Origin: Elusimicrobium sp. An273 | GTDB taxonomy: Bacteria; Elusimicrobiota; Elusimicrobia; Elusimicrobiales; Elusimicrobiaceae | DNA: 64,000 nucleotides | Direction of reading: 5' to 3' | NCBI RefSeq assembly: GCF_002159705.1 | Contig: NZ_NFJD01000001.1 | Location: 248,001-312,000, forward strand | In this document: in pieces, positions 2,252 through 53,160 of the stretch | Numbering within the stretch: the stretch's first letter is position 1 | Layout: every line of letters begins with the position of its first letter | Position numbers and translations under genes: made by a program | The notes under the pieces: model-generated | The model's input: only the letters and a program-made list of their open reading frames with translations | Database searches by the model: none | What the model was told of the DNA's origin: nothing

Positions 2252-3679
2252 ATGAACACATCCCATAGAATTTTAATTTTGTGTTTCTTGCTGAGTTGCA
2301 CGACAGGGGCAGGGGCGCAGCCTTTGTCCAAAAATTTATCTCAATTGTTAAGAGGTTCTTTCACGGCCCCGCGCATGGTTTTGGAAAACGGGGCCCTGTC
2401 TTCCGCCCAAAAGCATCTGCTGGAGTCCCAGCTGACCGCATTGGAAGAAACCCGCCGGGCCCTGGTGCAAAACCCCGGCTGGGCGGTATCTAAGGATTTC
2501 AACCTAACCGCCAAGCGCCTGGCGCGCCTGGAGTTGCCGGTGCCCCCCAAACCGAAAGCGGATGCGCCGACTGCCGAAAAAGAGCGCTATTTAAAAAGAC
2601 TTAACAAACTGCTGTACCGGGAAAGCAAAGCCTTGGCGTCCGTCCTTGACCAACAGCCGCGCCCTTATACACCGGACAAGCGCCTAAACTGGGAGCCGCT
2701 TTCCACCCCCCGCCAGCAGGCTTTAACCCGCGACCATTGGGAACAAATCCTCGCCAGCGGAAACCCTTCTTTTACCTGGGGCACCCAAAACTGGGATGAA
2801 GTGCAAGTAAACCCCTTGCGTTTTGCGACAAATCCGAATGATCCCGATTATATTCCTGAAGAAGCCTGGGAAGAATTAACGTGGGAGACGGGGTCTTCCA
2901 AGTACGAGTTTTATAACGCAATTTTAGACGCGCCCGCCTTAACCTCCCGCCAAAAGCAACTGCTTATTTGCGCCGCGGAGGAAGCGTCCGCCGTTTTAAC
3001 CTATGAATTTGTGCAGCTCTATGTGCCCGCCTTTGGCATGCTCCCGCAAGCGGTTGTTCCGTCTGCCGCCGAGCCGGACGCACACGCCGGGCTGGAAGCG
3101 TATGCAACCGCCGTTCAAAAAAAGTTGCTGTTAAAATTACAAGACGAGGGATCTTGGTCTCCCGCCGATTTTGAACGCTTTGCGCAAGTGTCCGTTTTCC
3201 TGCCGGCCGAAAAAGCCCAAGCGGTATTGGGGGCGGCTACTTTTTTGGAAACGCAAGCCCCGCTGTGGCTATTGGAACATCCGTTAGACCATCCCCTTTC
3301 CCAAGAAATTCTAAAACGCACGCAAGACGCCCGCCTGCACCAGCAAGAACGCTGGCCCGATGGTGTCATTCTGCCCAAAGCAAAACTGTCCAACCGGTTT
3401 AAATTGCTTTATTCCGCCCGCCGCAAGGCCTTGCAAGCTTACAGCGACCTGTTGTGGAACCGCTTGCAAAAACTGCTCGACAAGCAGGACTCCGCCCGCC
3501 GAGCGGCCCAAATTTTAACGGATCATCCGCCCACAAAAGACAGCACTGTGGAAGACAAAAAGCAAATACTTGCTACGTGGATTTTTATTTCGGCACGGGA
3601 AGCCCGCTTGCAAAAAAACATTAACGAAGTATCCCTGCGGCTGCATCAAACCGAAGCAGAACTCGGCCGCATGCCGTAG
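2252..3679 (+). CDS. Exported protein of unknown function, paralogue 2
   Basis: This 475-residue protein has an N-terminal signal peptide ending near residue 22 (GAGAQ). It could instead be lipidated, since LLSC at residues 12-15 is a weak lipobox. The rest is helical and aligns along most of its length with the preceding gene, including an LEETRRALVQNPGWA block, a WSPADFERFAQVSVFLPAEKAQ block and a WPDGVILPKAKL block. The 48-nt gap to the first paralogue has no promoter of the shared type, so the two are probably co-transcribed. No catalytic motif or known domain was recognised. The pair looks like a local duplication that has diverged considerably. Confidence 0.85.
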   Translation: MNTSHRILILCFLLSCTTGAGAQPLSKNLSQLLRGSFTAPRMVLENGALSSAQKHLLESQLTALEETRRALVQNPGWAVSKDFNLTAKRLARLELPVPPKPKADAPTAEKERYLKRLNKLLYRESKALASVLDQQPRPYTPDKRLNWEPLSTPRQQALTRDHWEQILASGNPSFTWGTQNWDEVQVNPLRFATNPNDPDYIPEEAWEELTWETGSSKYEFYNAILDAPALTSRQKQLLICAAEEASAVLTYEFVQLYVPAFGMLPQAVVPSAAEPDAHAGLEAYATAVQKKLLLKLQDEGSWSPADFERFAQVSVFLPAEKAQAVLGAATFLETQAPLWLLEHPLDHPLSQEILKRTQDARLHQQERWPDGVILPKAKLSNRFKLLYSARRKALQAYSDLLWNRLQKLLDKQDSARRAAQILTDHPPTKDSTVEDKKQILATWIFISAREARLQKNINEVSLRLHQTEAELGRMP

Positions 3680-40636: not shown

Positions 40637-41215
40637 TTATTCAGCTTTTTTTGGCTGCGGCGCGGCAGACATATTTCCCTGCAGTTGCTTTACGCTTTCT
40701 ATAAATTGCGGATTTGTGAAAATTTGCTCAATGGTTTTGGCAAATTCCGGGTTTTGCATACTTTCTTGCACCACCTTGCCCACTTGGGGATTTTCCTGCA
40801 GAATTTTAAGCATTTTCTCGCCGCTTAAATCCGCCAGATTATCGGCCTCTCCCTCGGTGGCGTCCGCTAATTCCTGATTAAATTTTTGTATATTGGGGTC
40901 TTGCGCATAATCCATTAAAATGGATTCAATGGTTTCCTGGGCCTGCTGTTGCTGCAAATCAAACGACAGGGGAGCCGATTCCAAAAAAATGGCCGTTTGG
41001 GCCGGGTCAAACGCGACGGGACGCGAAACCGGCTCCGGCCGCGGCGCCGCCAAGGAAACCGGCACATTTTGGAAAGTAAACGCATTGCCGCTGACGGCAT
41101 CCTGCGCCGCTTTTTCGGCCGCCCTGCGTTCATAGAACTGATAGCCGCGCACCGCGCCCATATAGAGGAGCGCGGCGAGCATAATGGCTATCAGGCAATA
41201 ACTGGTTTTAGACAT
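40637..41215 (-). CDS. Membrane-anchored protein of unknown function
   Basis: This 192-residue protein has an N-terminal membrane helix (residues 5-22). A Pro/Val-rich linker (VPVSLAAPRPEPVSRPVAF) leads into a helical domain with a repeated pattern NPQVGKVVQESMQNPEFAKTIEQIFTNPQF, in which NPxF/V recurs about every 12 residues. It resembles no domain I can name. Its ATG overlaps the FKBP stop codon (TAATG), indicating translational coupling to the peptidyl-prolyl isomerase. Confidence 0.75.
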   Translation of the reverse strand: MSKTSYCLIAIMLAALLYMGAVRGYQFYERRAAEKAAQDAVSGNAFTFQNVPVSLAAPRPEPVSRPVAFDPAQTAIFLESAPLSFDLQQQQAQETIESILMDYAQDPNIQKFNQELADATEGEADNLADLSGEKMLKILQENPQVGKVVQESMQNPEFAKTIEQIFTNPQFIESVKQLQGNMSAAPQPKKAE

Positions 41216-41925
41216 TATTTTCCTTGCGAAAGCATTTCAATATCAAACACCAACACGGAATTGGGCGGAATTTGGCCCACCGGGCGATTGCCGTAGGCGG
41301 TATCGGCGGGGCAGACCACTTTGGCGCGGGAACCGGGCTTCATTTGCTGAAGGGCTTTTGTCCAGCACGGGATAACATCGGTCAGTTTGGTTTCAAACGC
41401 TTCGTCGCGGTCGCGCGAACTGTCAAACTTGGTGCCGTCAATTAACGTGCCAGTATAGTGCACTTTTACGGTCGCGTCCGCCTTGGGCGTTTTGCCTTTG
41501 CCCGCGCGGCTCAGTTTGATGAGGGTGCCGTTATCCAGCTCTTTTACCCCTTTTTCTTTTTTAAAATTTTCCAAGTATTCCTGCTGGGCGGCTTCGCGCT
41601 TGGCGGAAATAATTTGCGCGTCATCTTGATATTTTTGAATGATAGCCGGCTTATACTGGTCTAAATCCGTTTGGGATTTTTTGTTCAGCAAGCTGTCGCG
41701 CATGCCTTGGGAAAGGGCTTTGTAATCGTCTTCGTTGTCCAAGATTAACTGGCGTTTTAAATTATCCCCCAGCAAGAAGCCCAGCGAATAGAGCATTTTA
41801 TTGCGCTCGGCAATGTCCTGCACGGACGGCTTGGCGTCCTGTGCGGCCGCCGCGGGCTGCGCGGCTTCCTGTGCGCTTAGCAGCAAAGGGGCTGCCAATA
41901 AAGCTAAAATCATCATTTTTTTCAT
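41215..41925 (-). CDS. FKBP-type peptidyl-prolyl isomerase, exported (FkpA/Mip-like)
   Basis: This 236-residue protein has a signal peptide to about residue 19. A helical dimerisation region (about 30-125, LYSLGFLLGDNLKRQL...) precedes a C-terminal FKBP domain with VKVHYTGTLIDGTKFDSSRDR near residue 150, FETKLTDVIPCWTKALQQMKPGSRA and the YGNRPVGQIPPNSVLVFDIEML end. The plan matches periplasmic FkpA/Mip chaperones that help envelope proteins fold. AGGAGAAAG precedes the ATG. It lies between LPP20 and the anchored unknowns in the envelope operon. Confidence 0.92.
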   Translation of the reverse strand: MKKMMILALLAAPLLLSAQEAAQPAAAAQDAKPSVQDIAERNKMLYSLGFLLGDNLKRQLILDNEDDYKALSQGMRDSLLNKKSQTDLDQYKPAIIQKYQDDAQIISAKREAAQQEYLENFKKEKGVKELDNGTLIKLSRAGKGKTPKADATVKVHYTGTLIDGTKFDSSRDRDEAFETKLTDVIPCWTKALQQMKPGSRAKVVCPADTAYGNRPVGQIPPNSVLVFDIEMLSQGK

Positions 41926-50655: not shown

Positions 50656-51819
50656 TCAGCGAGACCAGCCGTGCAGCGCTTTATAGTAGTAATAATTTTT
50701 GATATATCCTACCCAGCTGACGGAACCGGCAATTTCTTCAAACATATCGTCGCCATAGATATATCCGTCAAAGCCCTGCTCAAACATTTTTTCGGCATTT
50801 AATTTATCAATCGTGTACATGCTGCAGCCGATAATGGGCATATTCAGCCCCATGCTGCGCACTTCGTCCACCAGATAATATCCGCCGCCGCCGGGAACGG
50901 TTAAATCCGTAATGATTAAATCGTAGACGTTTCCGGACTGGATGGCATTAATCAAATCCCGCGTATCTTTATACGTAGTCACGCTCCAGCCTTCCCCTAA
51001 GCGTTTTTGCGCGTTCCAGATGCGGTACATATCCAACACGTCGGTCTGGTCATTCAAAACCGCTACGCGGATGTTGGCCGGCAGCTCTCTTTTGGGGGCC
51101 GTAACGCCCTGCGGCACTTTGGAAACATCGGGATATTTCAAAAAGAACTCTTCCCGGTTAAAACTGCGCGAATCCGTCCGGGCGCTCGTGCGCTGGGCAG
51201 GTACGTAATAGGGGTTGATTTGTTTCAAGGCTTCATCTATCCATTTGCCTACTTTTTCCAAAGCGGCATCATTGGAAAACACCACCCGGCGCAGTTTTTC
51301 CACACGGCCCTCCAAGGCGGCTAATTCCGAAATCAGCCGACGCCGTTCCTGCGGAGGGAAAGATACCCATTTGTCGTTGGGAAGGCTTTGGTAGAGCAAT
51401 TTGGCGTTTACTTCTTTGCGCACAGGCGCCAAATCGCGCATCAAGCTGCGGTATTCATTTACCGCCTGCTGCACCTGCTCGGTGGTGGGATGAATTAAAT
51501 TGATTTGTAATTCGCGGATCGGAGTGGCCATAATCGGATCAAAAAAACCGCTGTTGCGAAAAGCGTGTTCGCGCGTTTCTTTGACAGGGAGCTGCTGTTT
51601 TACCGCCCGTTCTATAGAAGCGGCCGCCGGCGATTTTTTCAACGCCGCCCCAATGCCATACCAGTTATCCATCGTTTTTAAAATAGACATTTCTGCCGCG
51701 TTGGAACTCAGCGCGCGGGAGCCGGACTTAATAATTTGTTTGCCGGTCTGCGCATAAGCCGAAGAAGCCAGCGCCACAGCCATCAATCCAACCAACCATT
51801 TTCCAGATACAGGGTTCAT
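50656..51819 (-). CDS. Exported protein with C-terminal receiver-like domain
   Basis: A clear signal peptide (KWLVGLMAVALASSAYA-Q, residues 7-24) starts this 387-residue protein. A helical middle region (about 90-210) is shared with the next gene upstream on the same strand. The C-terminal 140 residues look like a response-regulator receiver: VAVLND (acidic residue near 252), the phospho-site-like strand YDLIITDLTVPGGGGYYLVDEV (Asp near 304) and MPIIGCSMYT (Ser near 332). The conserved Lys is missing (GFDGYIYG). The C-terminus NYYYYKALHGWSR matches its paralogue. A receiver fold outside the cytoplasm would have no ATP-driven kinase partner. The promoter carries the shared 16-nt element, and GGAGAGC precedes the ATG. 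Confidence 0.8.
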   Translation of the reverse strand: MNPVSGKWLVGLMAVALASSAYAQTGKQIIKSGSRALSSNAAEMSILKTMDNWYGIGAALKKSPAAASIERAVKQQLPVKETREHAFRNSGFFDPIMATPIRELQINLIHPTTEQVQQAVNEYRSLMRDLAPVRKEVNAKLLYQSLPNDKWVSFPPQERRRLISELAALEGRVEKLRRVVFSNDAALEKVGKWIDEALKQINPYYVPAQRTSARTDSRSFNREEFFLKYPDVSKVPQGVTAPKRELPANIRVAVLNDQTDVLDMYRIWNAQKRLGEGWSVTTYKDTRDLINAIQSGNVYDLIITDLTVPGGGGYYLVDEVRSMGLNMPIIGCSMYTIDKLNAEKMFEQGFDGYIYGDDMFEEIAGSVSWVGYIKNYYYYKALHGWSR

Positions 51820-51851
51820 ATGCTCTCCATTTGTTTTAATCTCTTATCTTT

Positions 51852-51893
51852 ATTATAAATGTGTGTTTGTTGCGGCACCAGGGCCATTGGGCC
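51852..51893 (-). promoter_or_regulatory. Shared-element promoter of the first exported receiver-like gene
   Basis: On the minus strand GGCCCAATGGCCCTGG (51893-51878) is followed by 20 nt and TATAAT (51857-51852). A further GGCC half-site lies 16 nt upstream. Confidence 0.65.
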
Positions 51894-51919
51894 TATTTTT
51901 ATTTAGGCCTGGTACCAGA

Positions 51920-53056
51920 TTACCGGCTCCAGCCGTTTAGATCCCGGTAATAAAAATAATTTTGAAGTTTTTTCATCACTAGCCGCGGCCAATTCCGGTC
52001 TTGTTCAAAACCGATCGGCGCGGGGATCATCCCGTCAAAGCCGCGCTGGAACATATTCCAACCCATGCGGGACTCCTCCGGATACGCCGAAAGCCCAAAA
52101 ATGGCGCCGTTAAAGCCTTTTTCACGCAGGGCAGAAACCAAATAATACCCGCCGCCGCCCGGCACGATTAAATCCGTTAAAATCACATCAAATTCCGCCC
52201 CTCGGCGCACGGCCTGCAGCAGGTCGTCCGCCTCGCTGTAGGTGGCAAGTTCCCACGTGGGGCAGAACCTGTTTTGGTGTTCCCGCTGCATGGCGGCCAA
52301 CACGCTGGGTTCGTCATTCAAAACGGCCATTCTAAGGCCTTCCGGCAAACGGCGCGCCGCCTGATTGGTGCGCACGGAAAGAGGAAGCCACTCCGTCCAG
52401 GCCGTTTCTTTCAGTGCTTGGGGTGTATGCAGGAAAAATTCGGTAGAAGTATACTGGCGGTCGGTGCGGGCAAAGGTGCGCTGTTCCAAAATGCCGCGCA
52501 GCATGGGGTTGACGGTTTCGGCCGCAAACACCATATATTCCCGCGCGGCCTGATACGCCGGGTCATGCTGGGAAATTAAATTTTTAAGCTGCAGCAACTG
52601 GGCATTCATCAGGCCGATTTTTTCACTCCACATCGCCTGCTCCGCGCTGGAAATTTCACGCCGCTCGCTGGGCTTGGACTGATAATACAGAAAAACATCC
52701 ATTTCCTTTTTAAACGCTTGAAAAGACTGCATGACCCGTTTGTATAATAGCGAAATGTCCTCGATAGGCATTTGGGAAGGTTCCAAAAACAACACCGGCA
52801 AATAGCCGATAGGCGTGGGCCGCACCTGCTTAAAAATATATTTTTCCAAATCCGAAGGAACCGCCGCCCGGGGCATTTTTCCCCCCGGCAAAATCTTCCC
52901 CTGCACCACGCGGGCCTGGCGCAAGATGTCTTCGCCGGCAGTTTTTCCCAGGGCTTTTTTGAACACGCCCTCTGCGGCGGCTTCTTTTAGCAAATGGCGC
53001 TGCGCCGCGCAGGGAAGTGTGGCTAATAGAATAAAAAGTAAAAGTAGTTTTTTCAT
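51920..53056 (-). CDS. Exported protein with C-terminal receiver-like domain, paralogue
   Basis: This 378-residue protein has a signal peptide (MKKLLLLFILLATLPCAAQ) and the same architecture as the gene at 50656. The helical middle includes a matching YQS-P-(N/S)-(D/E)-(K/R) segment. The C-terminal receiver-like domain has MAVLND (near 243), FDVILTDLIVPGGGGYYLVSAL (Asp near 292) and AIFGLSAYP (Ser near 323), again without the conserved Lys. The C-terminus NYFYYRDLNGWSR is conserved. ATG 53056 is chosen because the signal peptide begins there. An upstream in-frame ATG at 53080 would add eight charged residues. Its own promoter with the shared element shows it is not merely read together with its neighbour. 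Confidence 0.8.
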   Translation of the reverse strand: MKKLLLLFILLATLPCAAQRHLLKEAAAEGVFKKALGKTAGEDILRQARVVQGKILPGGKMPRAAVPSDLEKYIFKQVRPTPIGYLPVLFLEPSQMPIEDISLLYKRVMQSFQAFKKEMDVFLYYQSKPSERREISSAEQAMWSEKIGLMNAQLLQLKNLISQHDPAYQAAREYMVFAAETVNPMLRGILEQRTFARTDRQYTSTEFFLHTPQALKETAWTEWLPLSVRTNQAARRLPEGLRMAVLNDEPSVLAAMQREHQNRFCPTWELATYSEADDLLQAVRRGAEFDVILTDLIVPGGGGYYLVSALREKGFNGAIFGLSAYPEESRMGWNMFQRGFDGMIPAPIGFEQDRNWPRLVMKKLQNYFYYRDLNGWSR

Positions 53057-53097: not shown

Positions 53098-53139
53098 AAG
53101 ATACCAGAAGAAACATGCAGCGGCAAGGGTCAAAGGGCC
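53098..53139 (-). promoter_or_regulatory. Shared-element promoter of the second exported receiver-like gene
   Basis: On the minus strand GGCCCTTTGACCCTTG (53139-53124) is followed by 20 nt and TATCTT (53103-53098). A further GGCC half-site lies 16 nt upstream, as in the neighbouring promoter. Confidence 0.65.
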
Positions 53140-53160
53140 CAATTCAAATTAGGCCAAGGC

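Follow-up and report, generated by a model that had tools for sequence, protein, structure and literature searches.

A predicted exported family of pseudo-receiver proteins in one genus of Elusimicrobiota, with two invariant active-site aspartates and no conserved lysine

Few signalling domains are as common as receivers, which are normally intracellular. Receiver homologues in which any one of five conserved residues is absent have been defined as pseudo-receivers (Bourret et al. 2025, PMC12632262). In pseudo-receivers generally, the second position of the acidic pair (DD2) is about 80% non-acidic; DD2 contacts the metal directly, and the first position (DD1) does so only through water (PMC12632262). 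Aspartate-less receivers (ALRs) have lost the phospho-site Asp (D) and mostly keep the Lys, about 70% being basic (Maule et al. 2015, PMC4395418). Secreted or periplasmic cases are unmentioned in the texts of PMC12632262 and PMC4395418, and we found no report of an exported receiver family in the open-access literature searched.

In a 64,000-nucleotide stretch of DNA from Elusimicrobium sp. An273 (the window), two neighbouring genes encode proteins that are a variant of the receiver/pseudo-receiver kind. They share with PF00072 and CheY the (beta-alpha)5 fold and the equivalents of D57, D13 and T87, together with a Gly at D+8 in 62 of 81 family members. They differ in that the family is predicted to be exported, in the loss of Lys109 and the replacement of Asp12 by Asn, and in a receiver placed C-terminal to a helical module, with neither an output domain nor a neighbouring kinase. 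The parts of the pair are as follows.

50656..51819, minus strand: gene 1 (P0001), open reading frame for a predicted exported pseudo-receiver protein of 387 aa
51751..51819, minus strand: gene 1 Sec signal peptide, residues 1-23, AYA↓Q (arrow, cleavage site), rule-based from the sequence
51217..51483, minus strand: gene 1 helical module, residues 113-201, three long helices (AlphaFold model, alignment)
50671..51084, minus strand: gene 1 receiver domain, residues 246-383 (Pfam, model, alignment)
50659..50697, minus strand: gene 1 C-terminal tail NYYYYKALHGWSR, residues 375-387 (family conservation)
51889..51910, minus strand: gene 1 upstream dyad AGGCCTA-N8-TAGGCCC, a promoter/operator candidate, 0 mismatches
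51920..53056, minus strand: gene 2 (P0002), open reading frame for a predicted exported pseudo-receiver protein of 378 aa
53003..53056, minus strand: gene 2 Sec signal peptide, residues 1-18, CAA↓Q, rule-based from the sequence
51938..52348, minus strand: gene 2 receiver domain, about residues 237-373 (Pfam match 245-349, alignment)
53135..53156, minus strand: gene 2 upstream dyad TGGCCTA-N8-TGGGCCC, 2 mismatches

Each N-terminus opens with a positive n-region, continues into a short hydrophobic core and ends in a signal peptidase I site with Gln at +1 (MNPVSGKWLVGLMAVALASSAYA↓Q in gene 1 and MKKLLLLFILLATLPCAA↓Q in gene 2). A signal peptide was recognised by a simple rule in 76 of 81 distinct homologues, and at least 66 of the 81 have Gln at +1. 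Most exceptions are either giant proteins, which have other site ends, or open reading frames that are disrupted, truncated at a contig end or unclear in their start. Taken alone the hydrophobicity rule is weak and unspecific, flagging 27 of the 56 genes picked in the window; Gln at +1 occurs in six of these 56, two of which are the gene pair. A signal anchor that would keep the receiver in the cytoplasm was considered and ruled out by the charge of the n-region, the length of the h-region and the A↓Q site. We infer from these sequence rules, with strong confidence, that both proteins are exported. The described pseudo-receivers are implicitly cytoplasmic; both proteins here, and most of their family, carry a rule-based Sec signal peptide with an A↓Q site.

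The other exported proteins in the window with Gln after the signal peptide lie at 749-2203, 2252-3679, 22697-24010 and 41215-41925. Such proteins resemble those of the Q-rule, in which Gln follows the signal peptide, a feature of Bacteroidetes (PMC5837995). A Q-rule of the Bacteroidetes type with a Glu_cyclase_2 enzyme was considered and rejected, as a search for Glu_cyclase_2 found none in the genome.

The C-terminal part of gene 1 matched Pfam Response_reg with E = 5.3e-8 and 33.5 bits, above the cut-off of 30.2, and that of gene 2 with E = 8.7e-6 and 26.3 bits, below the cut-off. The same match was obtained for 52 of 57 aligned family members (E<=0.01). When the family profile was compared with receivers in the PDB, the best value was 2.2e-11, and a receiver-like de novo design scored 4.7e-16. 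The helical part (gene 1 residues 113-201) had no Pfam match. An AlphaFold model, made for gene 1 only and built from the 57-sequence alignment, had a mean pLDDT of 86.7 and about 87-97 over residues 250-383. Its strands (251-255, 279-283, 301-304, 329-333 and 352-355), with helices in between, follow exactly the receiver order and give the full (beta-alpha)5 topology; an extended linker with the motif RxDR..EFFL joins the helical module to the receiver in model and alignment. CheY structures were the best structural matches of this model (Z 16.8, rmsd 2.1 over 127 residues). The preliminary description had read both proteins as starting with signal peptides and ending in a receiver domain, and had proposed structure prediction against the CheY fold as a check. 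The AYA↓Q and CAA↓Q sites, the Pfam and PDB profile matches and the alternating beta/alpha fold of the gene 1 model all bear this out, and a genuine receiver fold outside the cytoplasm is supported. Export and fold are both well supported by sequence and prediction. The genome holds 11 Response_reg matches, of which four are the exported family members (the window pair, C4:221.7 kb and C3:112.9 kb). The remaining seven matches are in different proteins; four of these have a readable start, and by the same rule none of the four has a signal peptide.

Conservation was counted over the 81 distinct homologues, whose median pairwise identity is 28.5%. The gene 1 pocket is formed by N256, D257, D305 and S333, with G356 at the Lys position; by alignment with CheY, N256 corresponds to Asp12 (DD1), D257 to Asp13 (DD2), D305 to Asp57, S333 to Thr87 and G356 to Lys109. 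DD2 and the phospho-site Asp were each present in 81/81 and ranked first among 142 columns. DD1 is Asn in 74 of 81, and equally many (74) have Ser or Thr at the Thr position. The Lys position, which ranked 119th, has Lys in a single homologue and otherwise drifts freely. The acidic LND strand, the phospho-site-like Asp and the Ser that had been noticed at the outset thus correspond to D257, D305 and S333, and the reported loss of the conserved Lys is confirmed. The GGGG block and the NYxYYxxLxGWSR tail singled out at the same time are real, and only partly conserved across the family (Y376 in 72/81, W385 in 67/81, Arg as last residue in 54/81). The five active-site residues DD, D, T and K of PF00072 are not all present, which places the family among the pseudo-receivers as defined by the absence of any of the five (PMC12632262), and this absence is what it shares with the bacterial pseudo-receivers. 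Its pattern of decay is, however, the opposite of theirs, with DD2 and D 100% kept and Lys lost. Unlike ALRs it retains the phospho-site Asp (D305, 81/81), so it is not an ALR. The sole member with Lys-Pro at the canonical Lys position (MISKP) is encoded at L045:7284-8444 (minus strand); its Lys perhaps represents an ancestral state.

The retention of D, DD2 and the Ser/Thr of the phosphorylation site would fit a working phospho-receiver, either outside the cytoplasm or inside it if the N-terminus were an uncleaved, reverse-oriented anchor. This reading is very improbable: Lys remains in only 1/81, the net positive charge of the n-region, the shortness of the h-region and the A↓Q after it point to a cleaved signal peptide, and no phosphodonor is known outside the cytoplasm. 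Because Lys and the acid at DD1 are both lost, the data support a loss of ordinary phosphotransfer competence.

The explanation that we propose, and to which we give even confidence, is an exported, cation-holding, non-phosphorylated docking module in a co-regulated set of exoproteins. A receiver domain would have come to follow a Sec signal peptide and a helical stalk, and would then have spread inside a single genus of Elusimicrobiota, both in single genes arranged in tandem and as the C-terminal module that caspase-fold giants carry. Signal peptidase I would cut before the Gln and the protein would reach the periplasm, the surface or the outside, a step supported by sequence; the C-terminus would fold as a (beta-alpha)5 receiver, a step supported by prediction and conservation, with DD2 and D under absolute constraint and Lys not. 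Because histidine kinases, which are ATP-driven, work in the cytoplasm and the phosphoryl-binding Lys is gone, we infer that a divalent cation, either Mg2+ or Ca2+ (the more abundant outside the cell), is held by the two aspartates in place of a phosphoryl group and that the domain stays unphosphorylated. The residues kept would be the direct metal ligands, since DD2 contacts the metal itself and DD1 reaches it via water. Once loaded with its cation, the domain, including an aromatic last helix and the tail, may dock to a partner or to the cell surface, and its expression alongside secreted peptidases would depend on one promoter dyad. Both the true phospho-switch and the sorting domain considered below are less likely than this docking module.

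The main rival of the docking module is that the fold would act outside the cell as a passive scaffold or surface for binding, its aspartates being kept for folding stability and neither for a cation nor for switching. Such a scaffold would be in keeping with the loss of Lys and of the DD1 acid, with Met in 37 of 81 in place of the K-3 aromatic residue of Y-T coupling, and with the finding that no kinase gene adjoins the pair (the nearest HisKA match is about 13 kb off). R321, G349 and D351 are as invariant as the two aspartates, so the conservation of the latter could be partly structural. Even so, both metal-ligating aspartates persist in 81/81 at 28% identity, one of them at DD2, which in pseudo-receivers generally is about 80% non-acidic (PMC12632262), and a pocket kept so absolutely argues against a merely passive role. 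We regard the scaffold as possible, if doubtful; that the receiver fold was reused as a binding or scaffolding module, as first proposed, is plausible. It is rather unlikely that the domain is an extracytoplasmic switch of receiver type, in which the invariant aspartate pocket would sense a divalent cation or small ligand in place of a phosphoryl group and control the docking or peptidase activity of exported proteins. The 81 natural variants, with their metal ligands frozen and their Lys drifting, separate cation binding from phosphorylation and make the mode of action of pseudo-receivers testable in vitro, in a switch fold that was seemingly given a new use outside the cytoplasm.

The profile search for the module covered this phylum. 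With a profile of the helical part it was found in 31 of 248 genomes, all within one of 76 genera; in that genus the module is present in 43 of 66 genomes, and the other 75 genera that were sampled lack it. There are up to five family genes per genome, often in tandem arrays. Seven exported giants of 1828-2170 aa end in the same helical-plus-receiver module (L056, L059, L064, L085, L086 and L087, and L052, which is cut at its 5' end by a contig end). They contain one repeat or two, each some 450 aa long. The repeats share with clan CD peptidases (caspase/legumain/MALT1-like) a modelled caspase-type fold (Z 10-12) and an invariant Cys; they differ in having no PDB or Pfam match by sequence, so that the likeness is one of fold only, and in a His motif that is missing from some copies. 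The genome of the window (1.5 Mb, 14 contigs) has no caspase-repeat giant. The repeat was found in none of the 36 genomes with single-gene members against 14 of the 30 others (Fisher 1.9e-6, uncorrected for relatedness); this non-overlap may only reflect relatedness, and we claim no functional exclusion.

Four homologous giants, from four other genomes, do not carry the module and terminate with, or close to the end of, their last repeat; the receiver module is hence a portable add-on, dispensable for some giants. The same four proteins weaken the proposal that a dedicated outer-membrane secretion or attachment machine reads it as a C-terminal domain for sorting or anchoring, in the manner of the T9SS CTD. 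Like that domain it is a conserved C-terminal module on diverse exported proteins, standing at the extreme C-terminus of single-domain proteins and giants alike, and its tail ends in the conserved W385 (67/81) and Arg (54/81). T9SS CTDs are, however, Ig-like beta sandwiches (PMC11285876), and the module here has a receiver fold; no NCBIfam sorting-signal model was among its matches at E<=0.1, though a signal of a kind outside these models may exist, and most other proteins preceded by the upstream dyad lack it. A sorting domain is thus unlikely.

The dyad upstream of the family spans 22 bp (RGRCCTA-N8-TAGGYCY); CCCTTG or CCCTGG usually comes next, with a putative -10 element. Of the 79 family upstream regions, 27 contain the dyad with at most two mismatches, whereas about 0.75 were expected from shuffles, and it precedes both window genes and the genome's two other family members. 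As 1.3 two-mismatch matches are expected in a window of this size, such matches are not rare, and the gene 2 dyad, which TGGGCCCTTTGACCCTTG adjoins, therefore rests on its position and on its family neighbours. Genome-wide, most perfect or near-perfect dyads precede exported proteins, most of them with A↓Q, and most of the non-family proteins are without the receiver module. Those preceded by the dyad include two trypsin-like proteins, an M20 peptidase, ChaN/TraB-like proteins and unknowns. Because the dyad is common to both, the receiver proteins are probably tied to a co-expressed set of exported proteins, which would define a candidate exoprotein regulon in the little-studied phylum Elusimicrobiota.

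At least ten other exported A↓Q proteins of the genome have the dyad upstream (loci L099, L101, L106, L107, L109, L114, L120, L124 and others, each centred on its dyad). A sensor histidine kinase gene at L145:3530-5239 (minus strand) has a one-mismatch dyad about 80 bp upstream (G000:C1:175816-175837), and this kinase is possibly part of the dyad regulon or in control of it. In the window, an exported protein of 407 aa encoded at 24007-25230 (minus strand) is preceded by two GGTCTTTTG(T/G)CCC elements at 25263-25303.
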